Positions 24,490-46,807 of a DNA stretch of 48,548 bases are shown here, one piece after another (positions within the stretch are counted from its first letter, which is position 1; each line of letters starts with the position of its first letter). The stretch is from Ameyamaea chiangmaiensis. Lineage in GTDB: Bacteria; Pseudomonadota; Alphaproteobacteria; Acetobacterales; Acetobacteraceae. The stretch lies in NCBI RefSeq assembly GCF_013376175.1, contig NZ_JABXXR010000008.1, positions 1 to 48,548 on the forward strand. The letters run 5' to 3'. Below the pieces are notes generated by a model. That model saw only the letters and a list, made by a program, of their open reading frames with translations, was not told the DNA's origin and searched no databases. The position numbers and the translations under genes were made by a program.

Positions 24490-26090
24490 CAGGCAGCTCC
24501 GATCGCGCGCTTGTGGAGACGGGTGATCGCATCGAGCGAGGACAGGATCGCGCCTTCCTGCCAGCAGCCGATATAGGACGCGTGTTCACCGGCGAGGACC
24601 ACGCGGTTATCGACCTCGCACAGGGTCTTGTAGTGCGTCTTGCGTGCCTGTTCGCTCCACATCGAACAGCAGCCGAGCGTCCAGGGCACGCGGCTCCAGG
24701 CCCACGACACGCCGTTGGAGAATTCCTTGCGGTACTGCGGATGGATCTTGGAGCCCTGTTCCAGAACCGCCTCGATCCGCTGCTCCGGCGTCATGCCGGC
24801 GAAGTCGTAGGCCGCGGAGCCGAACATGTAGGCACCGAGCAGGACCGCTTTGCCTTTCGAGAAGTAGCCGTGGCTCGGGTAGGAGATCTGGCTCATCTGC
24901 TGGTCGGTGAAGCTGATGCCGCCGTAGATCTGGTCGTCCTCTTCCCAGAAGCGGCGATTGAATTCCAGCCCGACCTTGACCGACGATGCATATGGCACGG
25001 CTGCGATCGCCGCTTTCATCGGTCCGCTGACTTGCACGTCGAGCTGCGACAGGATCGAAAGCGGGATCGTGCAGACGCAATAGTCGGCTTTCGCCTCGAC
25101 CGTGCGGTTGCCGTGATTGACGTCGGTGTAGGTGACCGAGACGCCCTTGTCGTCCTGATGGATCGCGCTGACCTTGCAGCCGAACGTGATCAGGTCCTTG
25201 ACCTGCTTGGCGAAGGCCTTGCCGATCTGGTCCATGCCGCCGACCGGCTGGAACATCGTCGTCTGCATCTCGAGACGCATGTTGAACGACAGCCAGTTCC
25301 ACAGCCCCGACGCCATGATTTCATCGCGCGGCAGGAGGTCTGACGGGATGGGTGCCCCGTCGATACCGCCGCCCTGTGGTTTGGCAAAGCCCCGTCGCTG
25401 AGAGACGCGGTCGCTTTTGACATAGCGGTAAGAGGAGTCGAGTGTGCCCCAGCCTGCCATCGCCGCCAGAACGTGCTCGCGCTCGTCGGGGTGGAGAATG
25501 TCGTCCAGCTTGTGTTGGTTGACGGCCTTGGACAGCATCTCGGCAGTGTAGCCGTTGAAGTCGCTCATCACGTCGCGATAGCGCTGCGGCTTGCCGCCGA
25601 ACGCATTGGTCGCGTGCAGATAGCTGTTGTGATTGACCTCGACGAACGGTTCGAGCGCGACGCCGAACTCGCGGCAGTAATGCAGCAGGCCCTGATGGTG
25701 ATAGGGGATGCGCCACGGGCCGGGATTGATGTAGTTGCCCGGCGCGAACTTCACGGACTGCGAGGCGCCGCCGAGTTCGGTGAAGCTGTCGCCCGAATGC
25801 AGGGTAAAGTTACGGCCCCCCGCGCGGTTTTGGAATTCGAGAACCCGGACGTTGTAGCCCGCCTTGCGCATCTCGTAGGCGGCCAGCATCCCGGCCAGCC
25901 CTGATCCCAGGACCAGCACCGTGGTGCCCTTGCGCGCGCCGGTCAGGGTCGGCGGCGAGGTGAAATCGGTGCCCGCCGCGTGCCCCATCGCCGTCATGGC
26001 CTGATACATCGCGGCAGTACCGGCGGCGACCCCGATGCGGGTCAGCAACTGCCGTCGCGTCTGCGGTGTGAAGGGGTGTTGCTCTGGCAT
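24489..26090 (-). CDS. lao: Tat-exported flavin amine/L-amino-acid oxidase
   Basis: 533 residues. A twin-arginine signal (TRRQLLTRIG, R12-R13) is followed by a hydrophobic stretch; then comes the FAD-binding region VLVLGSGLAGMLAAYEM (GxGxxG at 62-67) with the ribose-binding E85, and GGR. The end (VVLAGEHASYIGCWQEGAI) is the conserved C-terminal FAD contact of monoamine oxidase-type enzymes. It would oxidise an amine or L-amino acid to an imine in the periplasm. Coupling to cytochrome c and RidA matches the lao-cccA-ridA set I recall from Gluconacetobacter diazotrophicus, hence the symbol; the substrate itself cannot be read from sequence. The ATG at 26090 is chosen because it begins at the Tat signal; an upstream in-frame start at 26171 would bury that signal. 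Confidence 0.88.
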   Translation of the reverse strand: MPEQHPFTPQTRRQLLTRIGVAAGTAAMYQAMTAMGHAAGTDFTSPPTLTGARKGTTVLVLGSGLAGMLAAYEMRKAGYNVRVLEFQNRAGGRNFTLHSGDSFTELGGASQSVKFAPGNYINPGPWRIPYHHQGLLHYCREFGVALEPFVEVNHNSYLHATNAFGGKPQRYRDVMSDFNGYTAEMLSKAVNQHKLDDILHPDEREHVLAAMAGWGTLDSSYRYVKSDRVSQRRGFAKPQGGGIDGAPIPSDLLPRDEIMASGLWNWLSFNMRLEMQTTMFQPVGGMDQIGKAFAKQVKDLITFGCKVSAIHQDDKGVSVTYTDVNHGNRTVEAKADYCVCTIPLSILSQLDVQVSGPMKAAIAAVPYASSVKVGLEFNRRFWEEDDQIYGGISFTDQQMSQISYPSHGYFSKGKAVLLGAYMFGSAAYDFAGMTPEQRIEAVLEQGSKIHPQYRKEFSNGVSWAWSRVPWTLGCCSMWSEQARKTHYKTLCEVDNRVVLAGEHASYIGCWQEGAILSSLDAITRLHKRAIGAA

Positions 26091-26450
26091 CCGGCTGGAC
26101 CTCGTGGATGGAAGATGAACGCGACATGCGTCGCTCCTACCGCAGGAAGCAGTCCCGCGCGGGACGGTCAAGACAGGGCGTACCCGGAACGATGTATCGG
26201 AACGGAATGAGGGCGGTTCGATACGGGTGCCGACAGAACCCTGACCATGCGGTCAGTCGGGGCAAAGGTGCTGGCAGCAAAAGAGATTCCGAAGGCTCGT
26301 TGATATGACGGGAAAACTTTTATGTGATAAATATGTCATAGTCTTCACGGTAAAAAAAATCCGGCGCAAATTGCCATTGAAATGCGTCTGTTCGGCACGG
26401 CAATGATCCCCCGTTCCATCTCTTCGTCTCTCGGGGGTCGCCCACCTATC
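26091..26450. other. 360-base divergent intergenic region
   Basis: Separates the flavin oxidase (minus) from the first TonB receptor (plus) and should hold both promoters. The right half is AT-rich. It contains inverted arms TATGAC (26304-26309) and GTCATA (26335-26340) and a GCAA-A-TTGC palindrome (26366-26374). No gene is convincing. Confidence 0.45.
26366..26374. promoter_or_regulatory. GCAA-A-TTGC palindrome upstream of TonB receptor 1
   Basis: Perfect 9-base palindrome 77 bases before the receptor start. A degenerate version (TGCAAATTCGCA, 29219-29230) precedes the second receptor. The shape recalls Fur/Irr-type sites of alphaproteobacteria, but the match is short and the role is a guess. 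Confidence 0.25.
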
Positions 26451-29024
26451 ATGAGCCTCAATCGCCTTTTGCTTGCTGCTACGATCCTGTCCGTGCCCGC
26501 GTCGGCCGTGACCCTTAAGGCCCAGGCTGCCACCGTAACCTCCGCGACCAAGGCGACCACTCACGGCCGCACGCGTCACACCGCAACCCGTCCCGCGCCC
26601 TCGACCATGTCCGCCCCGGTGGCGGCGACGGCAGCGCCCGCTCCTGTCGTGGCGCCGATTGCGCGCCCGTCGCGCGCTCCGGCTGATTCCGGCGAGGCGG
26701 TGATCGTGACCGGTACCCACGCCTATAACCGCCACGCGCGCGATTCGACGGCGCCGGTCACGGTTCTGTCGGCCGCGACCCTGACGCGCACGGGTGCTGT
26801 CAATCTGGCGGATTCCATTGTGCGTATGGACCCGTCCATCACGACCCAGACACAGGGTTCGGACGTGGGCGCGCTGACGTCGTCGATCCGGATGCGCGGC
26901 CTGAACCCGAACGAGGTTCTGGTCCTGGTGGACGGCAAACGTCGGCATACGACGGCGAACATCATTGCCGATTCGGGTCCGCAGCAGGGCTCGACACCGG
27001 TCGACCTGAACATGATCCCGGCGTCGGCGATCGACCATATCGAGATCCTGCGCGATGGCGCGGCGGCGATGTATGGTTCGGACGCGATTGCGGGCGTCGT
27101 GAACATCATCCTGAAGAAGACGCCGCACGGGCTGAACATGGTCGCGCAGACCGGCGCCAACGCGTATAACGGCGACGGCTGGCAGTATCAGGTCGGCATC
27201 GACGGCGGCTTCGGCTTCGGCGACGACGGATACGTCCACATCTCCGGCCAGGTCACCCACACCGATCACATGGTGTCGCGCACGACCGATACGCGCTCAG
27301 CCGGAGGAACGCTGTTTCCGGCGGATTCGAACAAGATCGAAAGCACGCCGGAAGAGACGCGCGAAAATCTGGCGATCGAGTTCGGCAAGACCCTGTTCGA
27401 GGGCGTGCAGGGCTACGGCAACATCACCTACGCCCATCGTCATTCCGAGGCGTATGAGAACTTCCGCCCCAACGTGACATCGCCGGGCACGTTGCTCAAG
27501 GCCCTGTATCCGTGGGGTTTCTCGCCGCTTGAGACGCTTGAGGAGAACGACTTCGCCGCGACGCTGGGTCTCAAGGGCGATCATTTCCTCGGTTTCGACT
27601 GGGATCTGAGCACGACCTTCGGTCAGGACGGCGATTCCATCGGCAACAAGCACACGGCGAACTCGACGCTGTACACCCGGACTGGCTTCACGCCCACGAC
27701 GGTGAACGCGGAATATTACAGCCTGTCGCAGTGGACGAACAACCTCGACCTGCGTCGGCGTTTCAACATCGCCCACACCGTGCCGATGACCCTGGCCTTC
27801 GGTGCCGAGCATCGGCTTGAGATGTACAAGATCGACCCGGGCGCACCCGCCTCCTACCTGTATGGCGGAACGGCCGGTTACGCGGGCCTGATGCCGCAGA
27901 ACTCAGGTAACTGGAGCCGCGACGTGTGGGCCGGTTACGTCGATGGCGACTTCCACCCGTTGAAGCACTGGGATCTGGATTTCGCTGGTCGCTTCGAACA
28001 CTATACCGATTTTGGCAACACCGAGAACGGCAAGGTCTCGACGCGTTACGACTTCACCAAGCGCATCGCCATCCGTGGCACGATCAGCAACGGCTTCCGT
28101 GCGCCCACCCTGCCAGAAGAGCATTTCAGTGCCCTGAACGTGTCGCCGACGGCGGCATCGGGCCTGTTGTCGACGACGTCGGCCGCCGGTCGGGCCGTCG
28201 GTGCGCAGAACCTGAAGCCCGAGCGGTCCACGAGCGCCGAAGGCGGCATTCTTGTCGAGCCGATCGACGGCTGGCACATCTCTGCCGACGTCTACCAGAT
28301 CAATATCCGCGACCGGGTCGCCGGTTCGCTGAGCGTGAATGGTCCGACGGCGGTCAACGCGATCGAGGCGACGGGTGCGACGCTGCCCGTGGGAATCACC
28401 GACTTGACCAAGGTGACGGCGAACTACTTCGCCAATGTGGGTTCGACCCGCACACAGGGCATCGACATCATGTCGGACTACATGTTCCATCTGCATCAGT
28501 ACGGCACGCTGGATTTGACGCTGGCGCTGAACCTGAACCGGACGCGTGTCTCCCACATCAACACGGACTCGAACGGCAACCCGTATCTGAACGCGCAGTC
28601 GGCGGCGTATCTGTCGTCCACATCGCCGCGCAGCAAGATCATCCTTCAGGCCTTCTACACGAATGGTCCGTGGGACGTGACCGTGCGCCAGACCCGTTAC
28701 GGCGAGACCGTGTCGATGCTGACCTATCAGACCAACCCGCCTTGGGGTTCCGTCTGCGCCGCTGACGGCAAGGCTCTGAGCGGTTCCGTGAAATGCTTCC
28801 AGCAGTTCAAGAACACGCCGGCATGGCTGACGGATCTTGAAGTCGGATATCGTCTCGATCACCACTGGCACTTTGCCGTAGGCGCGAACAACATCTTCAA
28901 TATCCGCCCGCGCCGCGTGCAGCTTTACAACAACTATCTGGGTGCGCGTCCGTTCGATTCCAACTCGTCGAGCATCCCTTTCACCGGTGGCTACTACTAC
29001 GGCCGAATCAACGCTTCGTTCTAA
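26451..29024 (+). CDS. TonB-dependent outer membrane receptor 1
   Basis: 857 residues: signal peptide (MSLNRLLLAATILSVPASA), an unusually long Ala/Pro/Thr-rich linker of about 60 residues, a TonB box (GEAVIVTGT), a plug domain (IRMRGLNPNEVLVLVDGKRR, then DHIEILRDGAAAMYGSDAIA) and a 22-strand barrel ending in GGYYYGRINASF, with the C-terminal Phe needed for assembly. It imports a bound ligand with energy from TonB-ExbBD; the ligand is unknown. The gene is a tandem paralogue of the next one, with blocks of near-identical DNA. An upstream ATG at 26382 is possible; 26451 is chosen because the signal peptide begins there, though no clear ribosome site precedes it. Confidence 0.92.
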   Translation: MSLNRLLLAATILSVPASAVTLKAQAATVTSATKATTHGRTRHTATRPAPSTMSAPVAATAAPAPVVAPIARPSRAPADSGEAVIVTGTHAYNRHARDSTAPVTVLSAATLTRTGAVNLADSIVRMDPSITTQTQGSDVGALTSSIRMRGLNPNEVLVLVDGKRRHTTANIIADSGPQQGSTPVDLNMIPASAIDHIEILRDGAAAMYGSDAIAGVVNIILKKTPHGLNMVAQTGANAYNGDGWQYQVGIDGGFGFGDDGYVHISGQVTHTDHMVSRTTDTRSAGGTLFPADSNKIESTPEETRENLAIEFGKTLFEGVQGYGNITYAHRHSEAYENFRPNVTSPGTLLKALYPWGFSPLETLEENDFAATLGLKGDHFLGFDWDLSTTFGQDGDSIGNKHTANSTLYTRTGFTPTTVNAEYYSLSQWTNNLDLRRRFNIAHTVPMTLAFGAEHRLEMYKIDPGAPASYLYGGTAGYAGLMPQNSGNWSRDVWAGYVDGDFHPLKHWDLDFAGRFEHYTDFGNTENGKVSTRYDFTKRIAIRGTISNGFRAPTLPEEHFSALNVSPTAASGLLSTTSAAGRAVGAQNLKPERSTSAEGGILVEPIDGWHISADVYQINIRDRVAGSLSVNGPTAVNAIEATGATLPVGITDLTKVTANYFANVGSTRTQGIDIMSDYMFHLHQYGTLDLTLALNLNRTRVSHINTDSNGNPYLNAQSAAYLSSTSPRSKIILQAFYTNGPWDVTVRQTRYGETVSMLTYQTNPPWGSVCAADGKALSGSVKCFQQFKNTPAWLTDLEVGYRLDHHWHFAVGANNIFNIRPRRVQLYNNYLGARPFDSNSSSIPFTGGYYYGRINASF
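26862..27275 (+). repeat. Plug-domain repeat, copy 1
   Basis: 414 bases that match 29752-30165 with only three differences by my reading (offset 2890). The match includes third codon positions, beyond what protein constraint explains. It encodes most of the plug domain and the start of the barrel. Confidence 0.9.
27951..28114 (+). repeat. Barrel repeat, copy 1
   Basis: 164 bases that match 30841-31004 with one difference, again at offset 2890. The flanking sequence on both sides is clearly more diverged. A shorter identical block lies at 27717-27790 (30607-30680). Confidence 0.9.
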
Positions 29025-29080: not shown

Positions 29081-29218
29081 GTTGTCCGGGCACGATGCCG
29101 ATCCCTTGCCGATCGATCATTGATCTCGGTAGCGACATGATCGCCGCGATGAACTTTAAATGCCGTAACTGCAGTAATTGGGAAAAATTGACTGACGTAC
29201 TTGCGTGTTGATGACTGT

Positions 29219-29230
29219 TGCAAATTCGCA
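29219..29230. promoter_or_regulatory. Degenerate TGCAAATT palindrome upstream of TonB receptor 2
   Basis: TGCAAATTCGCA, a palindrome with one mismatched pair, 113 bases before the receptor start, resembling the site before receptor 1. Co-regulation of the two receptors is a weak inference. Confidence 0.22.
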
Positions 29231-29343
29231 TCATTCCGGTGGTGACCGTCCGGTGCTCGACGTTTCTGTATTGCAACGTATGCGGTGGGTCTGTTCATCT
29301 TCTTGCCGAAACGGATCATCTGTCGGAAAAGAACACGCGCCCC

Positions 29344-31911
29344 ATGACGTCCAAACGCATCCTCATTGCGGCTACCATGCTGACCGTGCTTCCCTCCGTT
29401 CATGAAGCGGTCGCGGCCACAACGTCCGCGACTGTTGCCAGGCAGCATACGAACAAAACCGGCAAAGCCGCCGCATCCGCCACGACCCGCCAACGCACGG
29501 CGGTGACACCGGCCGCCACGCCTGTTGCGGCACCTGTCGTGGCGCCGATTGCGCGCCCGTCGCGCGCTCCGGCTGATTCCGGCGAGGCGGTGATCGTGAC
29601 CGGCACCCACGCCTATAACCGCCACGCGCGCGATTCGACGGCGCCGGTGACGGTTCTGTCGGCCGCGACCCTGACGCGCACGGGTGCTGTCAACCTTGCT
29701 GATGCGATCGTGCGCATGGACCCGTCGATCACGACACAGGGACAGGCGGCCGACGTGGGCGCGCTGACGTCGTCGATCCGGATGCGCGGCCTGAACCCGA
29801 ACGAGGTTCTGGTCCTGGTGGACGGCAAGCGTCGGCATACGACGGCGAACATCATTGCCGATTCGGGTCCGCAGCAGGGCTCGACACCGGTCGACCTGAA
29901 CATGATCCCGGCGTCGGCGATCGACCATATCGAGATCCTGCGCGATGGCGCGGCGGCGATGTATGGTTCGGACGCGATTGCGGGCGTCGTGAACATCATC
30001 CTGAAGAAGACGCCGCACGGGCTGAACATGGTCGCGCAGACCGGCGCCAATGCGTATAACGGCGACGGCTGGCAGTATCAGGTCGGCATCGACGGCGGCT
30101 TCGGCTTCGGCGACGACGGATACGTCCACATCTCCGGCCAGGTCACCCACAGCGATCACATGGTGCCCAGGACGTATGACACCCGGTCGCAGGGTGGCAC
30201 CCTGTTCCCGTCCAACCAGAACATGGTGACGTCGACGCCAGAAGAGACGCGCGAGAATCTGGCGATCGAGTTCGGCAAGACGCTGTTCGAGGGCGTGCAG
30301 GGCTACGGCAACATCACCTATGCCCATCGTCATTCCGAGGCGTATGAGAACTTCCGCAATCCTCAGGGGGCCGCGGGAACGGCACTTCTAGCTCTGTACC
30401 CGTGGGGTTTCTCGCCTCTGGAGACGATCGAGGAAAACGACTACGCCGCGACCCTGGGTCTGAAAGGCGGCCATTTCCTCGGCTTTGACTGGGACCTCAG
30501 CACCACATGGGGCGAGGACATCGATTCGATCGGGAACAAGAATTCGGGTAATCCGAACCTGTACACCAGCACCGGCTTCACGCCCACGACAGTGAACGCG
30601 GAGTCCTACAGCCTGTCGCAGTGGACGAACAACCTCGACCTGCGTCGGCGTTTCAACATCGCCCACACCGTGCCGATGACACTCGCTTTCGGTGCGGAGC
30701 ACAGGCTTGAGATCTATCAGATCAATCCGGGTGCCCCGGCGTCATACGAACAAGGTGGCATGCAGGGCTATGCGGGCCTGATGCCAGAGAACTCCGGTAA
30801 ATGGAACCGCGATATCTGGGCGGGTTACGTCGATGCGGATTTCCACCCGTTGAAGCACTGGGATCTGGATTTCGCTGGTCGCTTCGAACACTATACCGAT
30901 TTTGGCAACACCGAGAACGGCAAGGTCTCGACGCGTTACGACTTCACCAGGCGCATCGCCATCCGTGGCACGATCAGCAACGGCTTCCGTGCGCCCACCC
31001 TGCCGGAAGAGCACTTCAGCAGCCTCAACGTCTCGCCCACCGGCGCGACAGGCCTTTTGTCCACGACCTCGGCCGCCGGGCGCAGCATCGGCGCAAGTGC
31101 CCTGAAGCCCGAGCGTTCGACGAGTGTCGAAGGTGGTATTATCGTGGAGCCAGTCGATGGGTGGCACGCCTCCGTCGATGTCTATCAGATTGATATTCGC
31201 GACCGTATTTTCGGTGGTGGGACGGTCAGTGGCGACACGGCGATCTCGGCCATCGATCTGACAGGTGCGACGCTGCCGGCCGGTATTACGGGTGCAGACG
31301 TGGCGGCGAACTATTTTGCCAACGTGGGTTCGACGCGCACCCAGGGCATCGACATCATGTCGGATTACATGTTCCATCTGCACCAGTACGGCACGCTGGA
31401 TTTGACGCTGGCGCTTAACATCAACCGCACGCGCATGCGCCACATCAACGACAACGCACAGGGTCAACCCGTCCTGAACGACCAGACGGTCAGCTACCTC
31501 ACCTCGACATCTCCGCGCAGCAAGATCATTCTGCAGGGGTATTATACCAATGGTCCATGGGACGTGACGCTGCGTGAGACGCGTTATGGCGAGACGGTGT
31601 CCATGGTGCAGTATCAGGATGCCACTCCGTCCAACCTTATCTGCCCCAAGGACGGCGGCTCCCTTCAGTATTCGACCTCGTGCTATGCGCAGTTCCGGAA
31701 CAACCCTGTGTGGCTGACGGATCTCGAAGTCGGTTACCGGGTCAATCATAACTGGCATTTCGCCATTGGCGCGAACAACATCTTCAATCAGCGACCGCGC
31801 AAACTGTCGTCCTGGTTCAACTATCTGGGCTCCAACCCTTACGACAACACAAATTCGGGTATCGGTATCACCGGCGGCTATTACTACGGCCGGATCAACG
31901 CGACCTTCTGA
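29344..31911 (+). CDS. TonB-dependent outer membrane receptor 2
   Basis: 855 residues with the same plan as receptor 1: signal peptide (MTSKRILIAATMLTVLPS), Ala/Thr/Pro-rich linker, TonB box GEAVIVTGT, plug, and a barrel ending in GGYYYGRINATF. Plug and periplasmic-side barrel segments are almost identical to receptor 1, while parts of the barrel that probably form extracellular loops differ (for example the segments around 30180-30240, 30355-30375 and 31200-31310). This suggests two related ligands. The ATG at 29344 begins the signal peptide; the frame is open upstream to 29218 without any secretion signal. It ends at its own terminator, ahead of the amine dehydrogenase cluster. Confidence 0.93.
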   Translation: MTSKRILIAATMLTVLPSVHEAVAATTSATVARQHTNKTGKAAASATTRQRTAVTPAATPVAAPVVAPIARPSRAPADSGEAVIVTGTHAYNRHARDSTAPVTVLSAATLTRTGAVNLADAIVRMDPSITTQGQAADVGALTSSIRMRGLNPNEVLVLVDGKRRHTTANIIADSGPQQGSTPVDLNMIPASAIDHIEILRDGAAAMYGSDAIAGVVNIILKKTPHGLNMVAQTGANAYNGDGWQYQVGIDGGFGFGDDGYVHISGQVTHSDHMVPRTYDTRSQGGTLFPSNQNMVTSTPEETRENLAIEFGKTLFEGVQGYGNITYAHRHSEAYENFRNPQGAAGTALLALYPWGFSPLETIEENDYAATLGLKGGHFLGFDWDLSTTWGEDIDSIGNKNSGNPNLYTSTGFTPTTVNAESYSLSQWTNNLDLRRRFNIAHTVPMTLAFGAEHRLEIYQINPGAPASYEQGGMQGYAGLMPENSGKWNRDIWAGYVDADFHPLKHWDLDFAGRFEHYTDFGNTENGKVSTRYDFTRRIAIRGTISNGFRAPTLPEEHFSSLNVSPTGATGLLSTTSAAGRSIGASALKPERSTSVEGGIIVEPVDGWHASVDVYQIDIRDRIFGGGTVSGDTAISAIDLTGATLPAGITGADVAANYFANVGSTRTQGIDIMSDYMFHLHQYGTLDLTLALNINRTRMRHINDNAQGQPVLNDQTVSYLTSTSPRSKIILQGYYTNGPWDVTLRETRYGETVSMVQYQDATPSNLICPKDGGSLQYSTSCYAQFRNNPVWLTDLEVGYRVNHNWHFAIGANNIFNQRPRKLSSWFNYLGSNPYDNTNSGIGITGGYYYGRINATF
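29752..30165 (+). repeat. Plug-domain repeat, copy 2
   Basis: Second copy of 26862-27275, differing at three positions by my reading. Confidence 0.9.
30841..31004 (+). repeat. Barrel repeat, copy 2
   Basis: Second copy of 27951-28114, differing at one position. Confidence 0.9.
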
Positions 31912-31967: not shown

Positions 31968-32106
31968 CTGTTCGGGCAGACGTCTGAACGACAAAGCCCT
32001 TCGGCCATTAAAACGCTTTCCATGTAGTCATTTCGAATCCATAATGCATTTGCGTGTGTGCATGGGGTCCGACGACGTCGGCGCCGAATCGGGAGAGGCA
32101 GTTCGG

Positions 32107-33276
32107 ATGGCGGGATTGAGGAAAAGTCGGTGGGCCGCCATGGCGATCGCGGCCGCCGGGCTGTCGGGCGTGTCCGGGACACCGTCGGCGCGTGCCGCGC
32201 AACCCGTCCTGCAGGCCGAACAGAGCACGGTCGCGACACTGCCGACCATGTCGTCCCACTGGTTCCTGCCCGCTACCGGTTCGGAATCCTACACGCTGTA
32301 TAATGGTGATACGGCGCAGATTCTCGGAACATTGCCGGGTGACCTGATTTCGAACGCCGCGTTCAGTCCCGACGGAAAGACTTTCTATGTCGCGGTGACG
32401 ATGTGGGCGCGCGGCGATCACGGCCCGCGGGAAGATTTCCTGCGTGCATATGACGCGCACACGCTCGCCCTGGTCAAGGAAATCGAACTGCCGCCGCGCG
32501 CGCTGGCCGTCTACAAGATCCAGAATATGGATCTGAGCCAGGATGGACACTGGGCCTATATTTTCGACATGAGCCCGGCCACGGGTATCACGGTGATCGA
32601 TCTCAAGGCCGGGAAGGTCGTTCGCACCGTCGATACGCCCGGGTGCGCGCTTGTGTTCCCGTGGAAAAGCGGCGGCCTGTCGTCGCTGTGTGGTGACGGT
32701 TCGCTGACCAACGTGGCCGTGGATGCCAGCGGGGCCGCGAAAGTGTCCCACGTCGCACCGTTTTTCGATGCCAACAATGATCCGGTGTTCGAGCAGAGCC
32801 CGATCGACCGGCACGCGGGGATCGCGTTTTTCATAACCTACACTGGTAAGGTGTTTGAAACGTCGCTAGGCGCTACGCCGACGATTGGCACGCCGTGGAC
32901 GTTGTCGGCGGCCGCTGGCCAACCCGTTGCCACGACCGGCGTTCAGGACGTCGCGTGGCGTCCGGGTGGCAAGGAGCCTTTCGCCTATCAGCGTGCGACC
33001 CGCCAGCTGTACGCCCTGATGCACATGGGGACCTACTGGACCCACAAGCGCGAAGGCAACGAGATCTGGGTGTATGACACGACGGCCCATACGCTTTTGC
33101 GGCGCATCGCACTGCCTGCGGACTGCGTCGGGATTGCCGTATCGCAGGACCAGCATCCGTTGCTGTATGCCCTCACTGGCGAGGGCAAGGCGTTCGTGAT
33201 GGATGCCGCCAGTGGCAAGGTGCTGCATACCATCGATGCGCGGATCGGTGGCATCGCCCTGACGCCGGATCTGTGA
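32107..33276 (+). CDS. mauB: TTQ amine dehydrogenase, heavy (beta-propeller) chain
   Basis: 389 residues: a signal peptide (ending near SARA) and a seven-bladed propeller of the methylamine/aromatic amine dehydrogenase heavy-chain family. Recognisable stretches are NAAFSPDGKTFYVAVTMWAR, HGPREDFLRAYD and GVQDVAWRPGG. The heavy chain holds two light chains in a periplasmic alpha2-beta2 enzyme that oxidises a primary amine to an aldehyde and ammonia. Sequence does not say whether methylamine or an aromatic amine is the substrate (it could equally be called aauB). The ATG at 32107 has AGAGG 8 bases upstream; an earlier in-frame ATG (32044) would precede the secretion signal. First gene of a four-gene run (heavy chain, MauD, light chain, cytochrome c). 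Confidence 0.92.
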   Translation: MAGLRKSRWAAMAIAAAGLSGVSGTPSARAAQPVLQAEQSTVATLPTMSSHWFLPATGSESYTLYNGDTAQILGTLPGDLISNAAFSPDGKTFYVAVTMWARGDHGPREDFLRAYDAHTLALVKEIELPPRALAVYKIQNMDLSQDGHWAYIFDMSPATGITVIDLKAGKVVRTVDTPGCALVFPWKSGGLSSLCGDGSLTNVAVDASGAAKVSHVAPFFDANNDPVFEQSPIDRHAGIAFFITYTGKVFETSLGATPTIGTPWTLSAAAGQPVATTGVQDVAWRPGGKEPFAYQRATRQLYALMHMGTYWTHKREGNEIWVYDTTAHTLLRRIALPADCVGIAVSQDQHPLLYALTGEGKAFVMDAASGKVLHTIDARIGGIALTPDL

Positions 33277-33301
33277 AACGCCAGCGCAGGACAGCGACGT
33301 C

Positions 33302-33907
33302 ATGGAAAGCGTGATCACCGGGCAGGCCCTTGTCGCGGTCCTGATCGTGGCGCTGGCGCTGTGCGTCTGGCGGCTGCGACAGCGGATTGGTGACATGATG
33401 ATGCAGGTTGCGCCGGCCGGTGCGCTGATGACCGCCGGCGGCATGGCGCCTGGCACGGCCGTCCCGGCACGCGCCCTGATGGCACTGGACGGCTCCTCCG
33501 TCACGGTGGGTGGTGTTACGCCGCGCCCGACGCTGCTGCTGTTCGTATCGGCATCATGCCCGATCAGTGCCAAGTTGATCTCCATCGCCCATGCGGTGGC
33601 GTTCGCTGAGCGGGTCGATCTGCTGTTTCTCGGCGATGACGCTGCTGCCGTGCAGCGCGACTTTGCCCATTTGCATCACATCGTGCCAGAACGCTTTGTC
33701 AACGATACGGAGATCGGGCGTGTCTTCGGGATCGACAAGTTGCCGTACGCCGCGCTGATGGAGACTGACGGCACGCTGATCGCTCGTGGTCTGGTCAACA
33801 GCCGCGAACATCTCGAAAGCCTGATGGTCGCTCGTGAGACGGGGTACACCACGGTTCAGTCCTACCTCGACGCCCGTTCTGCCCATTCCCGGACCTTGGC
33901 GGCCTGA
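33302..33907 (+). CDS. mauD: MauD-like thioredoxin-fold maturation protein (CPIS variant)
   Basis: 201 residues: one N-terminal membrane helix (about residues 5-22) and a periplasmic thioredoxin-like domain. MauD helps form or protect the disulfides of the light chain and normally carries a CPxC motif. Here the motif in SASCPISAKL is C86-P-I-S89, so the second cysteine is replaced by Ser. That would abolish a normal dithiol/disulfide cycle but could still allow mixed disulfides or isomerase activity. It starts 25 bases after the heavy chain; the membrane partner MauE, which usually sits in this gap, is absent. Identity rests on position and the overall pattern, and is good. Confidence 0.85.
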   Translation: MESVITGQALVAVLIVALALCVWRLRQRIGDMMMQVAPAGALMTAGGMAPGTAVPARALMALDGSSVTVGGVTPRPTLLLFVSASCPISAKLISIAHAVAFAERVDLLFLGDDAAAVQRDFAHLHHIVPERFVNDTEIGRVFGIDKLPYAALMETDGTLIARGLVNSREHLESLMVARETGYTTVQSYLDARSAHSRTLAA

Positions 33908-33941
33908 TACAGGGTCCGTCGCGCCACAAGAGGAGCGCCGC

Positions 33942-34502
33942 ATGTCTTCGTTGTCGTTGTTTGATCGCCTGGGCGAAAAGCTGGTGCGCAATCTCGCGGA
34001 GTTCTCGTCGCGCCGCAGCGTGCTGGGCACCGTGGGAGCGGCCATGGCCGCGCCGGCGTTCCCGGTTCTGCCGGTCGCGCGCGCTGCGGAAGCCAATGCC
34101 GCGCCCGTGCCTTCGACGCAGACCCTGACCGATTTCGAGCGCAAGGCCCAGAGTACGGACCCGACGAAGTGCGACTACTGGCGGCATTGTGCCATTGACG
34201 GCCTGCTGTGCGGCTGCTGCGGCGGCGGCATCCATACGTGCCCGCCGGGCGCGGAGCCGTCCCCCGTGTCGTGGATCGGCACGTGCCGCAACCCCGATGA
34301 CGGCCGGTCGTATGTGATCGCCTATCGCGATTGCTGCGGTCGCACGACCTGCCAGACGTCGGCCGATTGTCATTGCAACACGTCGGACCACGAGATGCCG
34401 ATCTATCGCCCCCAGGCGAGTAACGACATCATCTGGTGCTTTGGAACGCAGACGGCGGTTTACCATTGCTCGACCGCCGCGATCATCGGGCAGGCGGGCT
34501 GA
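33942..34502 (+). CDS. mauA: TTQ amine dehydrogenase, light chain
   Basis: 186 residues with a long Tat-type leader (FSSRRSVLGT) of about 48-50 residues and a Cys-rich mature part with 14 cysteines. The two tryptophans that crosslink into the TTQ cofactor are W111 (SWIGTC) and W165 (IIWCF). Aligned by eye to known light chains, D130 (AYRDCC) falls on the catalytic base and D86 (CAIDGLLC) on the aspartate needed for TTQ formation. The W-W spacing is 54 residues, three more than the usual 51, from a short insertion among the cysteines (TTCQTSADCHC). GAGGAG precedes the ATG. The precursor could be matured only if a MauG-type enzyme exists elsewhere. Confidence 0.96.
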   Translation: MSSLSLFDRLGEKLVRNLAEFSSRRSVLGTVGAAMAAPAFPVLPVARAAEANAAPVPSTQTLTDFERKAQSTDPTKCDYWRHCAIDGLLCGCCGGGIHTCPPGAEPSPVSWIGTCRNPDDGRSYVIAYRDCCGRTTCQTSADCHCNTSDHEMPIYRPQASNDIIWCFGTQTAVYHCSTAAIIGQAG

Positions 34503-34507
34503 CGTTC

Positions 34508-35038
34508 GTGCGTGCGCGGGGCGTTGTTCAGGGCGTGTGCGCGCTTGTCCTGCTCGCAGCTTCAGCTTTCCACGCGGCGCGGGCGGAGGCACCTCGCCCT
34601 ACGCTGCCGGTGCTGACCCATGCCCCCGCGAATTATCTGCTGGGCTGCGGGGGATGCCATGGGATCGGGGGGATGTCGCGGCAGGGAACGGTGCCCGATC
34701 TGCGCGGGCAGGCCGGGTATTTCTTATGTACCGACAGCGGCCGCCGTTATGTCCTGCGTCTGCCTAACGTAGCGTTCGCCAATCTGACGACACCTCAACT
34801 GACCGAACTTATGAACTACGTGATGTTCACGCTGGGGGCGGGAAGCGCGCCCAAGGGTGCGCGACCGTTCACCGAGGCAGAGGTGGAGGCCGCCCGGCAC
34901 GAGCCCTTTGGCGCGGTTAGTCTGCAGGCCTATCGTGCCGACGTGGTGCGCGATGTTACCACCGCGTGCCCCCAGGCCGCCGCCCTGACCGATTACGGGG
35001 CCGCCCTTGCCACGCGGGAGGTTCGCAACACGCCCTGA
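34508..35038 (+). CDS. Cytochrome c of the amine dehydrogenase cluster
   Basis: 176 residues with a signal peptide (ending near ARAE) and a single heme site, C47-G-G-C50-H51. A methionine ligand may be in GGMSRQG or in LMNYVM. It starts at a GTG only 5 bases after the light-chain stop, so it is almost certainly part of the operon. In Paracoccus-type clusters the blue copper protein amicyanin takes electrons from the TTQ enzyme; here no copper protein is present and this cytochrome is the likely acceptor. The C-terminal 70 residues beyond the heme domain match nothing I recognise. Confidence 0.88.
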   Translation: MRARGVVQGVCALVLLAASAFHAARAEAPRPTLPVLTHAPANYLLGCGGCHGIGGMSRQGTVPDLRGQAGYFLCTDSGRRYVLRLPNVAFANLTTPQLTELMNYVMFTLGAGSAPKGARPFTEAEVEAARHEPFGAVSLQAYRADVVRDVTTACPQAAALTDYGAALATREVRNTP

Positions 35039-37838: not shown

Positions 37839-39128
37839 CTACAGATCGAACTGGTCGCGCAGGCGGCCTTCGGCGATCTTGGCCGCGACGGCGAGTTTCC
37901 ATGCGGCGTGGCCGCGAATGGGTTTCAGCGGTGTGGGGGGCAGCAGTAGATCGCGTTCGGCGGTTCCCCCAACGCGTCGCGCCAGCTCCCGGCCAAGCAG
38001 TGTCGCCATCGCAACGCCACGCCCGTTGTAGCCGACGGCTGCGAAGATGCCGGGCATCGGCTCGTGCCAATGGGGGTAATGGTCGCTCGTGGCGGCAATC
38101 TGCCCGTTCCAGCCATGCGTGAAATCGTCCGGTGACAGCATGGGCCACAGTTCGCAGGCGCGTCGCACCAGAGTGGGGAAGGCGGCGACGCCGTTGGCTG
38201 GCGACATGCCCGATCGGCCACCGAACACGAGGCGCCCTTGCGCGTCCACGCGGTAATAGGTCGTGATGTGGCCGACCTCATACAGAACCTGGCCGTCGGC
38301 CATCACGGCGCGCCGCACCGCATCGGGCAGGGGGCGTGTGGCGACGATCGCGCTGAACACGGGCACCACGGAGCGGCGGAGCCTGTCCCACAGGCGATCG
38401 GTATAGCCGTTGGTGGCAAAGACCACGTGTTCGGCCGCCAGCGTTCCGGCGGCCGTACCGATTAACCACCGTCCCGCCTCGCGCCGCAGGGACGAAGCAC
38501 GGGCGTGCGTGTGGATGACGGCGCCTTTCCCCGTCGCAACGCGTGCCAGTTCGCGGCTGTAGGCGAGGGGGTTGAGCTGACCGCCGCTGCGATCGATCAT
38601 GCCACCCGCGTAGTGCGCTCCCGTGGAGGCGTGCATCGCGGCCGTGTCCAGCCATGCGACATCGCGGCCTAGCGTCAGGCACTCCGCCATGAGCGCCTGC
38701 ATCGGCATCAACTGGCTGGTCCCCGTGGCGGCCCGGATCGTGCCCCCCTGTCTTGCCTCACACGACAGGCCATGGCGACCGACCAGATCGAAGACCAGGT
38801 CCGGCGCCGCCCACGCCGCCTTGACCAGCCGCGCACCCGCTTCTGGCCCGAACCGCCGTTCGACGTCGCTGGGCGGCAGTTTCAGGCCCGGGTTGACGTG
38901 ACCGCCGTTACGCCCCGACGCGCCCCATCCTATCGAGCCCGCGTCCAGCACGCACACGTCGTGGCCGCTCTCGGCAAGATGCAGTGCGGCCGACAGGCCG
39001 GTGATCCCTGCCCCGATGATCGCCGTGCGGGTGCGGGCCGCGCCATGAAGCGGACGGGTCGCGATCGGTGCGGGAGCGGTGAGGTCGTAGACGCCTGAGG
39101 GAAAAGGGCCGCCCAGCGGTTCGGTCAT
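37839..39128 (-). CDS. PuuB/DAO-type FAD-dependent amine oxidoreductase
   Basis: 429 residues. An N-terminal Rossmann motif AIIGAGITGLSAALHLA (GxGxxG at 39-44) and GWGASGRNGG are the signature of D-amino-acid oxidase-type enzymes like gamma-glutamylputrescine oxidase (PuuB). GYNGRGVAMATLLGRELA near the end is the usual C-terminal FAD contact. No signal peptide, so it is cytosolic. It would oxidise a secondary or substituted amine to an aldehyde, which the next gene upstream (aldehyde dehydrogenase, 32 bases away) could oxidise to an acid. No glutamylputrescine synthetase (PuuA) is visible here, so the exact substrate is open. Start at 39128 follows the family N-terminus. Confidence 0.88.
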   Translation of the reverse strand: MTEPLGGPFPSGVYDLTAPAPIATRPLHGAARTRTAIIGAGITGLSAALHLAESGHDVCVLDAGSIGWGASGRNGGHVNPGLKLPPSDVERRFGPEAGARLVKAAWAAPDLVFDLVGRHGLSCEARQGGTIRAATGTSQLMPMQALMAECLTLGRDVAWLDTAAMHASTGAHYAGGMIDRSGGQLNPLAYSRELARVATGKGAVIHTHARASSLRREAGRWLIGTAAGTLAAEHVVFATNGYTDRLWDRLRRSVVPVFSAIVATRPLPDAVRRAVMADGQVLYEVGHITTYYRVDAQGRLVFGGRSGMSPANGVAAFPTLVRRACELWPMLSPDDFTHGWNGQIAATSDHYPHWHEPMPGIFAAVGYNGRGVAMATLLGRELARRVGGTAERDLLLPPTPLKPIRGHAAWKLAVAAKIAEGRLRDQFDL

Positions 39129-39160
39129 GGTAAATCTGCCGTTCTGCGAGGTAACACCGT

Positions 39161-40591
39161 TCAGGACGGGTCGTACCCGAGGATCGCCTTGACTTCGAGG
39201 AAGTCGATCAGGCCCCATTTGCCGCCTTCGCGTCCGTTGCCGGACTGCTTGTAGCCGCCGAACGGCACACGGGCGCTCCAGCCCGTTTCGTTGATCTTGA
39301 CGTTTCCGGCACGCAGTTTGCGTGCCAGCGCACGGGCGTGGTTGATGTCACCGGACTGGATATAGGCGGCCAGCCCGTAGGGCGTGTCGTTCGCCGCCGC
39401 AATGGCCTCCTCCTCCGTATCATACGGCAGGATCGCGAGGACGGGGCCGAAGATCTCCTCGCGGGCGATCGTCATGGTGTTGGTCACGTTCCCGAAGATC
39501 GTCGGCTTTACGTAATAGCCGCGCGTCAGTCCTTCCGGACGTCCGGTGCCGCCGCAGACCAGTGTGGCGCCTTCGTCGATGCCCGCCTGGATCAGGCCCT
39601 GGATCTTGTCGAACTGAACCTCGCTGACCACCGGGCCCAGCGTGCTGCCCGGTTGGCGGGGATCGCCGACGACCACGCTCGCGGCGACCTCGCCCGCGAT
39701 GGCCATCGCGTCTTGCAGGGATTCGCGCGGCACGAACATGCGCGTCGGCGCATTGCAGGACTGGCCACTGTTGCCGAGGCAGCTTTTCACACCCCGGCTG
39801 ACCGCGTCACGCAGGTCGGCATCGCGCAGAACGATGTTGGGCGACTTGCCGCCCAGCTCCTGCAACACGCGCTTGACGGACGCCGCCGAAGCCCGGGCGA
39901 CTGCGGTGCCCGCGCGGGTTGAGCCGGTAAAGGAGACCACGGCGACATCGGGATGGGCCGACAGGGCCTCGCCCACACCGGGACCGTCGCCATTGACGAG
40001 ATTGAAAACACCCGGCGGCGTGCCGGCTTCGTGCATGATTTCTGCGAATAAAAGCCCGCTGAGCGGCGCGATCTCGCTTGGCTTGAGAACCATCGTGCAG
40101 CCTGCGGCGATTGCCGGGCCGACCTTGCTGGCGATCTGGTTCATCGGCCAGTTCCATGGCGTGATCAGGGCGGCGACACCCACGGGTTCATGCGTGATCA
40201 GCGCGGTTCCGACATGTTCTTCGAGGGGAAACTCGCGCAGGGCCTCGATAATGGCTTCCAGATGGGCGGTGCCGGTATAGGCCTGGGATTCGAGCGCGAA
40301 ATCGAGCGGTGCGCCCATTTCGTCCGATATGGCCTGGGCCATCTCCGGCGCGCGGCGCTTGTAGATCGCAGCGATCCGTTCCAGCAGCGTCAGCCGTTCC
40401 TCGCGCGTCGAGGCGCTCCAACTGTCGAACGCCGACTTGGCGGCGGCAACGGCACGGTCCACGTCGGCCGCCGTTCCCATCGCGATTGTCGCACATGTCT
40501 CTTCCGTCGCCGGATTAATGACGTCGAGTGTGCGATCGCCAACCGGGTCGACCCATGTCCCGTCGATGTAGAACTGCCGTGAGTGCGACAT
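39161..40591 (-). CDS. NAD(P)-dependent aldehyde dehydrogenase
   Basis: 476 residues of the ALDH superfamily. Catalytic and binding residues are visible: N147 (TPWNWPMNQ), K170 (VLKPSE), E245 (LQELGGKSPN) and the nucleophile C279 (GNSGQSCNAPTRM). It converts an aldehyde to a carboxylic acid in the cytoplasm. GGAGGT lies 4 bases before the ATG at 40591, a strong ribosome site. As first gene of the run with the PuuB-like oxidase and MFS transporter, it probably handles the aldehyde made by that oxidase, and could equally serve aldehydes from the TTQ enzyme or 4-aminobutanal from the spermidine dehydrogenase nearby. Confidence 0.95.
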   Translation of the reverse strand: MSHSRQFYIDGTWVDPVGDRTLDVINPATEETCATIAMGTAADVDRAVAAAKSAFDSWSASTREERLTLLERIAAIYKRRAPEMAQAISDEMGAPLDFALESQAYTGTAHLEAIIEALREFPLEEHVGTALITHEPVGVAALITPWNWPMNQIASKVGPAIAAGCTMVLKPSEIAPLSGLLFAEIMHEAGTPPGVFNLVNGDGPGVGEALSAHPDVAVVSFTGSTRAGTAVARASAASVKRVLQELGGKSPNIVLRDADLRDAVSRGVKSCLGNSGQSCNAPTRMFVPRESLQDAMAIAGEVAASVVVGDPRQPGSTLGPVVSEVQFDKIQGLIQAGIDEGATLVCGGTGRPEGLTRGYYVKPTIFGNVTNTMTIAREEIFGPVLAILPYDTEEEAIAAANDTPYGLAAYIQSGDINHARALARKLRAGNVKINETGWSARVPFGGYKQSGNGREGGKWGLIDFLEVKAILGYDPS

Positions 40592-43442: not shown

Positions 43443-45419
43443 GTGAAGGACGATACACAATCAGGTCGCGGTCGTTCGATCGCACGTCGGGACTTTGTTA
43501 ACGGCGTTCTGGTCGCTTCCACAATGGGTGTGGCGCCTCTCACGAGTTCGCGCGCTGCCACCTCTGGTGGCCCTTATGTCCCCGCCCTTACCGGCATGCG
43601 CGGAAGCGCGCCGGGTCTGTTCGAGGCCGGGCATGCGTTGCGAGACCATGCGCTGGGGTCGCACCACACGCAGGACGTGGACGAACTTTATGATCTCGTG
43701 ATCGTGGGTGCCGGGATAAGCGGACTCTCGGCGGCGCATTTTTATCGGAAATATGCTGGCTCGAACAAGAAAATCCTGATTCTCGATAACCATGACGATT
43801 TCGGCGGACATGCGCGACGCAATGAATTCGATGTGGACGGCACCCGACTGGTTCTCAACGGTGGCACGCTCGAGATCGAATCGCCGGGCCGGTACAACCG
43901 GTGGGCCCGGACACTGCTGGACGATCTCGGGATTGATCTGGCGCGGTATCGTCGGGACTGCGCGCCGGTCGAACGGGTCTATGAAGCACATGGCCTGACC
44001 CATGGTGTCTTTTTCGATAGCGCCACATGGGGGCGGGACGAGATGGTGTCCGCGTCGCTGCGCCGGGGGGGCGTGCACTGGTCATTTATCGACGCGGACA
44101 TGGTGGCGCGCATGCCGCTCTCGCCACGCGCGAAGGCAGATCTGCTGCGCCTGATCGACCCTGCGCAGCCGGACTATCTTGGCGCTCTGGACGTTGCGGC
44201 GAAAAAGACGCTGCTCGCGACGATGTCGTACAAGGACTACCTGCTGACGGTCGCGCGCGTTGATCCCGGTGTGTATTGGCTGTTTCAAAAGGCATTGAGC
44301 GGTGTCTTCTGTGTCGGAGCCGACGCGCTGCCGGCGTTGTTCGCGTGGATGTACGGCTATCCCGGTTTCTCCGGCCTCGGGCTTGGCGAGGCGCCGGAGG
44401 GGCTTTTGTCCGACCTGCCGGGCGGGCAGCATGGACGCCAGCGCGAAAGCGGCGAGGACGTGCACTTCCCCGACGGAAACGCGACGATCGCGCGCCTGCT
44501 GATCGCCTCGCTCGTGCCCGGCGTGACCAAGGCAAACACTCAGGAGGCGATGGCCGGCGCTCATCTCGACTATACAGCGCTGGATCGGCCGGGTGCGGCG
44601 GTGCGCGTCCGGCTGAAGTCGATGGTCGTGCATGTCGCCCACGATGGCGATCCGGCGAAAGGCGGGACCGTTGCCCTGACCTATTCGCCCTCGGGCGAGG
44701 CGCACCCGGCGCAGATGACACGCGTGCGCGGGCGGCAGGTCATTCTTGCCTGCTGGAACATGGTCATTCCCTACATGATGCCCGAACTGCCGGAGGCGCA
44801 GAAAAAGGCGCTGTCGGACGCGGTCAAGGGGCCGCTTGTCTATGTCAATGTGGCACTTCGCAACTGGCACGCGTTCGAGCGTCTGCGCGTGTCGGAGATT
44901 TTATGCCCGGGCAGTTTCTTCGACGAAGTGGCGTTAATGGAGCCCGCGCAGATTGGCGCGGTTCAGGCTCCGCACGATCCGGCACGTCCGATCGTGGTCC
45001 GCATGATCAAGACGATGGGGCAGCCCGGCCTGCCCAAGCGCGAGCAATATCGCGCCGCCCGGTCCCTTCTGCTCTCGCTCGATTTCGCGACGTTCGAGCG
45101 AGAGGTGAGGGGGCAGCTGCAGCGCATGCTCGGCCCGGGCGGCTTCGACGCGGCCCGCGACATCGCCGCCATTACGGTCAACCGCTGGCCGCACGGTTAC
45201 GCCTACACCTACAATTCTCTGGATGATCCGCTGGACTGGGTTTTTACCGAGACTGATGATAGGCCCTGTGTGCGGGCGCGGCAGCCGTTCGGGTGCGTCT
45301 CGATCGCCAATTCGGACGCGGCGGCCAGTCCCCATACCGACGCCGCAATACTGGAGGCGCATCGCGCCGTGGAGGAAGTGCTGGAACGTTCGACTTTTCC
45401 GTTTGTGGTGCATCGTTGA
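43443..45419 (+). CDS. spdH: Tat-exported spermidine dehydrogenase
   Basis: About 658 residues. A twin-arginine leader (SIARRDFVNG, R15-R16) precedes YVPALTGMRGSAPG and the FAD motif LVIVGAGISGLSAAHFYR (GxGxxG at 89-94), then LDNHDDFGGHARRNEF. This order matches the spermidine dehydrogenase SpdH of Pseudomonas and Citrobacter, which cleaves spermidine to 1,3-diaminopropane and 4-aminobutanal. It would act in the periplasm. The GTG at 43443 is chosen; a GTG at 43425 and an ATG at 43353 are in frame, but the latter would run through the AT-rich promoter-like gap. It is followed closely by a GABA permease gene, which fits its product chain. Confidence 0.85.
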   Translation: MKDDTQSGRGRSIARRDFVNGVLVASTMGVAPLTSSRAATSGGPYVPALTGMRGSAPGLFEAGHALRDHALGSHHTQDVDELYDLVIVGAGISGLSAAHFYRKYAGSNKKILILDNHDDFGGHARRNEFDVDGTRLVLNGGTLEIESPGRYNRWARTLLDDLGIDLARYRRDCAPVERVYEAHGLTHGVFFDSATWGRDEMVSASLRRGGVHWSFIDADMVARMPLSPRAKADLLRLIDPAQPDYLGALDVAAKKTLLATMSYKDYLLTVARVDPGVYWLFQKALSGVFCVGADALPALFAWMYGYPGFSGLGLGEAPEGLLSDLPGGQHGRQRESGEDVHFPDGNATIARLLIASLVPGVTKANTQEAMAGAHLDYTALDRPGAAVRVRLKSMVVHVAHDGDPAKGGTVALTYSPSGEAHPAQMTRVRGRQVILACWNMVIPYMMPELPEAQKKALSDAVKGPLVYVNVALRNWHAFERLRVSEILCPGSFFDEVALMEPAQIGAVQAPHDPARPIVVRMIKTMGQPGLPKREQYRAARSLLLSLDFATFEREVRGQLQRMLGPGGFDAARDIAAITVNRWPHGYAYTYNSLDDPLDWVFTETDDRPCVRARQPFGCVSIANSDAAASPHTDAAILEAHRAVEEVLERSTFPFVVHR

Positions 45420-45439
45420 ACGATGACGTAGGCCCGGTC

Positions 45440-46807
45440 GTGCCGCATGACCGCGCGCCGGAAGGCGGTTCCCTGTCCCACGCGCTGCGCGGCCGCCATG
45501 TGGCGATGATCGCGATCGGCGGCACGATTGGCTCCGGATTGTTCGTCGGGGCTTCGAGTGCGCTGGCGCTGGCTGGTCCGGGCGCCCTGATCGACTATGC
45601 CGTGGGCGGCCTGATCGTGCTGTTCATCTGCCGGATGCTGGCGGAGATGGCGATGGCCTCGCCCGGTACCGGGTCGTTTGTGGCGCATATCCGGCGTGGT
45701 CTGGGAGACGGGGCCGGGTTCGTGGCGGGGTGGCTGTACTGGATCATGTGGGTCTGCGTCGTGTCGGTCGAAGCGCTGGCGTGTGCCAATTTGATCGGGC
45801 CCTCTCTGCCAATCCCGTATCTGGCGCTGGAAATTCTGGTGATGGGTTTCGTCACCGGCATCAATCTGTTTTCCGTGCGCGGATATGGCGAATTCGAATA
45901 CTGGCTGTCATTGCTGAAGGTCGGGACCATCGTCGCGTTCATCGGCGCCTGCATCGCCGGGCTTCTGGGATTGACCCCTTATGGGGTCGCCGTGTCCCAT
46001 GTGATGGACGTCAACCTGCATCCGGTTCCGCGCGGCGCGATGGCGATCGTTGCTGCCGTGCCGCTGGTGCTGTTCGCCATCGGTGGAACCGAGGCCTCCA
46101 CCATTGCGGCCGTGGAATCCGACGATCCGGCAGGTAATGTTCTACGTGCGACTCGATCGGTGGCACTGCGTATAGCCGCCTTTTACGTCATCTCCGTCGG
46201 CCTGATCCTGGCGATCGTCCCGTGGACCGACGTGCACCCCGGCGTCTCCCCTTTCCTGACCGCGTTGAACAGGCTGGGTATCCCGGGGGCTGAAGTGCTG
46301 ATGGGCGGCGTGATCCTGATCGGCTGCTTCTCGGCGCTGAATTCAGGTTTGTATATTACCTCGCGCATGATGTTCGAACTGGCGGAGATGCGTGGCGCGC
46401 CACGTTTCTTCGTCCGTCTGAGCGCCAACGGCACGCCACGCCACGCCATCGTGACGGCGACGGCGCTGGCCTTTGTCGTGGCACTGGGCGGCATTCTGTC
46501 GCCAGCGGCAGCGTTCAATTTTCTGCTGGGCAGCACGGGCACCTTCGTCCTGTTCGATTATGTGTTGATCGTGCTGGCCCATATGCGGCTGCGCTTTCAG
46601 GCCCAGCGGAGGGGCGAGCGTCTGGCGGCGCCGATGTGGTGCTTTCCGCTGCTCTCGGTCGTGACGCTGTTCTTCCTTGGCCTCGTGTTCGTGGTCATGC
46701 TCGGCGATCCCGAAACGCGCACGCAGATGATCGCCGGTACCGTGACGATGCTGATGGTCGTGCTGGTCGAGCGCCTGACCCGGCGGCGGCGGGCTCTGGC
46801 GACCTGA
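45440..46807 (+). CDS. gabP: GabP-like APC-family amino acid permease
   Basis: About 455 residues with 12 predicted membrane helices. The first helix region (MIAIGGTIGSGLFVGASSAL) and especially GYGEFEYWLSLLKV and AAVESDDPAGNVLRATRSV match E. coli GabP closely by memory. It would import GABA or a related amino acid with protons. Start is uncertain: a GTG at 45440 gives the family's usual N-terminus; a TTG at 45416 would overlap the spdH stop by four bases. With SpdH upstream, the pair suggests that periplasmic spermidine cleavage and uptake of GABA-like products are linked. Confidence 0.85.
   Translation: MPHDRAPEGGSLSHALRGRHVAMIAIGGTIGSGLFVGASSALALAGPGALIDYAVGGLIVLFICRMLAEMAMASPGTGSFVAHIRRGLGDGAGFVAGWLYWIMWVCVVSVEALACANLIGPSLPIPYLALEILVMGFVTGINLFSVRGYGEFEYWLSLLKVGTIVAFIGACIAGLLGLTPYGVAVSHVMDVNLHPVPRGAMAIVAAVPLVLFAIGGTEASTIAAVESDDPAGNVLRATRSVALRIAAFYVISVGLILAIVPWTDVHPGVSPFLTALNRLGIPGAEVLMGGVILIGCFSALNSGLYITSRMMFELAEMRGAPRFFVRLSANGTPRHAIVTATALAFVVALGGILSPAAAFNFLLGSTGTFVLFDYVLIVLAHMRLRFQAQRRGERLAAPMWCFPLLSVVTLFFLGLVFVVMLGDPETRTQMIAGTVTMLMVVLVERLTRRRRALAT

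Follow-up and report, generated by a model that had tools for sequence, protein, structure and literature searches.

How does an amine dehydrogenase whose gene cluster contains neither mauE, mauF nor mauG obtain its predicted TTQ cofactor? MauG is the textbook TTQ-completing enzyme and was worked out on one branch of these enzymes (MADH), and the question is raised here by a four-gene run of Ameyamaea chiangmaiensis located on contig C8 of a draft assembly (374 contigs, 94.6% complete), within a stretch of 48,548 nucleotides that was analyzed as a whole and is referred to as the window. Open reading frames and family profiles gave the order heavy chain, MauD, light chain and cytochrome c that had been read from the sequence alone (Table 1), and the family scores of the heavy chain, MauD and the light chain are far above chance. 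The heavy-chain reading frame opens at 32044, with a clean signal peptide beginning at the ATG at 32107, and its best PDB match is the MADH heavy chain 2bbk. The light chain matches the MADH and AADH light chains in the PDB, carries a twin-arginine-like leader (SRRSVLG) and is closest to light chains of Gluconacetobacter, Acetobacter and Komagataeibacter. The sequence-only reading had also stated that no mauE, mauF or mauG is present in the window, and this was confirmed: the PF07291 (MauE) match of the assembly lies on contig C45 and its PF03150 (MauG) matches on C54 and C44. That reading left two possibilities, namely that the missing genes lie elsewhere or that maturation works differently.

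Table 1. Features of the amine dehydrogenase cluster, its surroundings and the second cluster on contig C45.
Feature	Contig	Coordinates	Strand	Profile match or remark
Flavin amine oxidase	C8 (window)	24492-26171		
TonB-dependent receptor, upstream	C8 (window)	26382-29024	+	PF00593, PF07715
Second TonB-dependent receptor, directly upstream of heavy chain	C8 (window)	29218-31911	+	PF00593, PF07715
Heavy chain, putative TTQ amine dehydrogenase	C8 (window)	32107-33276	+	PF06433 E 1.1e-45; beta-propeller, signal peptide
MauD paralogue, monothiol (CPIS)	C8 (window)	33302-33907	+	TIGR02661 E 6.1e-37; N-terminal helix and thioredoxin fold
Light chain, putative TTQ precursor	C8 (window)	33942-34502	+	PF02975 E 9.1e-52; Met at 33942
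Monohaem c-type cytochrome	C8 (window)	34508-35038	+	one CxxCH; conserved family
FAD-dependent oxidoreductase, downstream	C8 (window)	37842-39218		
Aldehyde dehydrogenase, downstream	C8 (window)	39164-40750		
Amino acid permease, downstream	C8 (window)	45293-46804		
Heavy chain	C45	749-1975		
MauE	C45	1982-2521		PF07291 E 1.7e-21
MauD (CPIC)	C45	2518-3120		
Light chain	C45	3107-3658		

The light chain carries W111, W165, D86 and D130 (numbered from its initiator methionine) exactly as had been claimed. Across 96 aligned light chains the two TTQ tryptophans and D130 never vary, and D86 is kept in 94; the tryptophan pair, the catalytic aspartate, the cysteine framework and the accompanying heavy chain place the enzyme in the PF02975/PF06433 TTQ superfamily. 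These residues give good support to its reading as a TTQ enzyme, and the cofactor itself is predicted from them. Residue 177 (34470-34472) is a serine at the position of the catalytic threonine (Thr172 in AADH, Thr122 in MADH); both references have threonine here, and serine is found in 87 of the 96 light chains. The protein has 14 cysteines, all intact and the same 14 as in A. faecalis AADH. Two cysteine pairs (C22/C73 and C23/C67 in core numbering) are jointly present or absent in 95 of the 96 light chains, a covariation that fits disulfides, and since the window light chain possesses both pairs it probably forms seven disulfides rather than the probable six of MADH. MADH and the C45-type light chains have 12 cysteines, MADH keeping one of the covarying pairs and the C45 type the other. 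The light-chain tree, whose resolution is modest because it was built on 116 columns, falls into two sides (split support 100/99): A. faecalis AADH and an aau cluster from a P. aeruginosa plasmid lie on one, and the window, the C45 copy, the sphingomonads and MADH (on a branch of 1.23) lie on the other.

The premise that known clusters carry mauE, mauF and mauG proved too narrow, as aau-type clusters with the order heavy chain, MauE, MauD, light chain and cytochrome but no mauF or mauG are common. The A. faecalis aau cluster reportedly lacks both genes, and recombinant AADH has reportedly been made; as the lack of mauF and mauG in the aau type has been known since about 2001, the headline of the sequence-only reading is mostly known. 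The window cluster resembles the AADH system (aauBEDA of A. faecalis) in this gene order without mauF and mauG, which was observed here in the P. aeruginosa plasmid. It differs from AADH by the absence of a local MauE, by a CXXS motif in MauD and by the serine at the position of Thr172, and its light chain lies across the 100/99 branch from that of A. faecalis, outside the AADH grouping. With the Paracoccus mau system (MADH) it shares the TTQ tryptophans, the aspartates, the heavy/light architecture and the MauD/MauE helpers; unlike that system, it has no amicyanin, mauF, mauG or mauJ nearby and does not have the makeup of a mau cluster, its scores remain below both MADH cut-offs (161 against 454 bits for TIGR02658 with the heavy chain, and 188.8 against 196.85 bits for TIGR02659), and serine replaces Thr122. 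From its sequence, the window enzyme would be a TTQ amine dehydrogenase of aau layout that is filed neither as AADH nor as MADH.

The first part of the question is answered by contig C45, which harbors a paralogous full cluster composed of heavy chain, MauE, a dithiol MauD, light chain and two cytochromes, that is, the complete B-E-D-A-cytochrome order of which the window shows a version without E. This is the only PF07291 match in the assembly; the missing local MauE was accordingly rejected as a sign of new maturation, and the suggestion that the genes lie elsewhere holds for MauE and for a dithiol MauD; no MauF was found in the genome. In Gluconacetobacter (e.g., on the complete chromosome of G. 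diazotrophicus) the window-type cluster has the order heavy chain, MauD (CXXS), light chain, cytochrome, MauE and MauD (CXXC), and the C45-type cluster lacks both E and D. The set of genes is thus unchanged, with two enzymes, a single MauE and one MauD each of the dithiol and the monothiol kind; E and the dithiol D, placed at the opposite cluster, only change address. We infer that MauE and the dithiol MauD serve both enzymes. In a survey of 220 Acetobacteraceae genomes, 12 possessed a light chain above the cut-off; MauE at 70 bits or more was present in all 12 compared with 1 of the 208 genomes without a light chain, and MauD was likewise present in 12 of 12. In one further Acetobacteraceae genome, E and D occur together with a heavy chain, on a short contig whose end falls within MauD.

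MauF and MauG behave differently. A full-length MauF search gave nothing credible in six distinct enzyme-bearing genomes (that of the window and those of five relatives, one of them represented by the complete G. diazotrophicus chromosome), and the Paracoccus control was recovered at 3e-177; neither mauF nor mauG was found beside any of the 79 related loci. The window genome has two PF03150 matches, both unlinked to the cluster. The C54 protein was rejected as a MauG: it is a triheme peroxidase, contains a haem-binding domain, matches 9qdt best in the PDB and has methionine at the position of Tyr294. The C44 protein is a better candidate, and the strongest alternative explanation is that this BthA-like diheme protein (two CxxCH motifs) is an unlinked functional MauG, other members of the MauG superfamily taking the same role in other lineages. 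Its best PDB match is BthA and the second is MauG (143 bits), and the alignment shows that Trp93, Gln103, Pro107 and Glu113 of MauG are conserved in it, as is the axial ligand Tyr294. It has alanine in place of Trp199, the surface relay residue of MauG, and does not show the combination of Tyr294 and Trp199 that marks a MauG. A bis-Fe(IV) state like that of MauG is formed in BthA as well (PMC6405878), which makes the C44 protein a reasonable candidate. The broad BthA-like class, sorted from PF03150 matches by score, is also overrepresented among genomes that have the light chain (9 of 12, compared with 26 of the 208 that lack it; p 4e-6 uncorrected for relatedness, which confounds the comparison). 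Against this, such a protein occurs in many genomes that lack the enzyme, and three genomes with the light chain (G168, G177 and G218) do not have it; the single PF03150 protein of G168, an assembly of 4 contigs, agrees in score and length with the C54 type. No PF03150 protein at all is present in two of the 12 light-chain Acetobacteraceae, one of them 100% complete. Moreover, five of 44 isolates (Novosphingobium nitrogenifigens, N. sp. FKTRR1, N. cyanobacteriorum, N. beihaiensis and Sphingobium sp. Sx8-8) gave no match to the MauG superfamily in a search that found the MauG of the Paracoccus plasmid, with absence weighing less in draft genomes than in closed ones. The C54 and C44 proteins do not behave as dedicated or consistent partners of the enzyme, and an unlinked MauG is considered unlikely. 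Maturation that works differently is favored for MauF and MauG, as the searches found no MauF, no linked MauG and only inconsistent unlinked superfamily genes, and is not favored for MauE, given the copy on C45. As a separate observation, the TIGR03791 model, named MauG, gives the Paracoccus denitrificans MauG (L088, 8880-10043) 96.8 bits compared with a cut-off of 443.85, and thus misses the annotated MauG of that mau cluster.

A feature absent from the sequence-only reading concerns MauD. The active site of the window copy is C86-P87-I88-S89 (CPIS) instead of the dithiol CPxC, and its TIGR02661 score of 126.9 bits is below the cut-off of 188.6, as is that of the CXXC copy on C45 (130). The protein resembles MauD in its fold, N-terminal helix, CP motif and Pro148, which is invariant at the cis-Pro position; it differs by the serine that replaces the second active-site cysteine in all acetic-acid-bacterial copies of its clade. 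The AlphaFold model (pLDDT 92.7) shows the helix followed by a thioredoxin fold, and the PDB entries that it matches best are thiol-disulfide oxidoreductases, 4nmu and ResA among them. In the MauD tree, CP[IV]S is present in 29 of 29 copies of one clade (support 100/99; the window copy and loci L009-L070) and the remaining copies are CXXC: the CXXS form has a single origin and is limited to acetic acid bacteria. In each of seven further genomes, surveyed in full, at least one CXXC and at least one CXXS MauD are present, and four sphingomonads surveyed in the same way have CXXC MauD alone. A thioredoxin-fold protein with a CXXS site can form a mixed disulfide and cannot resolve it. The most likely role of the CXXS MauD is to hold a mixed disulfide or to act as an isomerase, and not to oxidize; no description of it was found in the literature searched. 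The extra disulfide of the light chain was rejected as the reason for this variant, since genomes with 12-cysteine light chains only (G168, Asaia and Gluconobacter) have CXXS as well.

The loss of MauE and of one MauD active-site cysteine at the window cluster, together with the long branch of its MauD (0.63), could also indicate a decaying duplicate with an immature or inactive enzyme. This is very improbable: dN/dS of CXXS MauD is 0.08-0.19 in nine pairs, near that of the CXXC sister, which argues that it is maintained under purifying selection; CXXS MauD and the window-type enzyme are retained across acetic acid bacteria; the catalytic and TTQ residues and the 14 cysteines are all in place; and MauE and a dithiol MauD are available in trans. 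Least probable of all is an ordinary split cluster whose true mauG and mauF sit in a gap of the draft assembly, for which the number of contigs and the incomplete genome leave room, but against which stand the five enzyme-bearing relatives without MauF (the complete G. diazotrophicus chromosome among them), the 79 loci with neither gene alongside and the five isolates that have no MauG-superfamily gene.

We consider it likely that, of two paralogous aau-type clusters in this acetic acid bacterium, the one in the window encodes an enzyme that is matured by MauE and the dithiol MauD acting in trans, with assistance from the monothiol MauD, and acquires TTQ without a dedicated MauG. In this scheme the heavy and light chains would be exported through the signal peptide and the twin-arginine-like leader, respectively. 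The C45 MauE and dithiol MauD would then act on the seven probable disulfides of the window light chain, and the CXXS MauD may hold mixed disulfides or act as an isomerase. W111 and W165 would be crosslinked and oxygenated to TTQ, a dedicated MauG not being needed, and electrons from amine oxidation would exit via the neighboring monohaem cytochrome c. This cytochrome family adjoins 77 of the 82 light-chain loci, and the model of the window member (pLDDT 86.6) has as its best, weak PDB match the Thermus cytochrome c552. It is probably the electron acceptor of the enzyme and possibly also an electron sink during TTQ formation. A further conserved maturase gene near the loci was looked for by clustering the ORFs of the 82 loci and rejected: the only widespread labelled families are heavy chain, light chain, cytochrome, MauD and MauE, and the next large ORF group, which is unlabelled, looked on visual inspection like reading frames on the opposite strand of real genes.

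Beyond the window, a broader proposal is put forward more tentatively, at somewhat less than even confidence: a large TTQ group, comprising most of the retrieved loci, may complete TTQ without the MauG superfamily, by self-processing or with the help of the neighboring monohaem cytochrome c, and in acetic acid bacteria a monothiol MauD may work beside the dithiol one. Some genomes keep intact TTQ light chains and show no MauG-superfamily gene in the searches, which suggests at least one other chemical solution, and these genomes name the organisms where alternative TTQ completion can be sought. The conserved CXXS MauD, for its part, offers a natural Cys-to-Ser exchange in the active site of a helper dedicated to disulfides, and the cells that carry it also supply a control in the form of the dithiol sister.

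The genes around the cluster look like an amine-catabolism island, judging from their predicted products (Table 1). The translations of the two upstream TonB-dependent receptors nearly repeat each other, making them near-duplicates. A TonB receptor also lies just before the heavy chain on a Novosphingobium plasmid (L090). Near the end of the contig, a DUF2126 putative amidoligase (46851-48506) matches profile positions 322-826 alone, and the gene is probably truncated.
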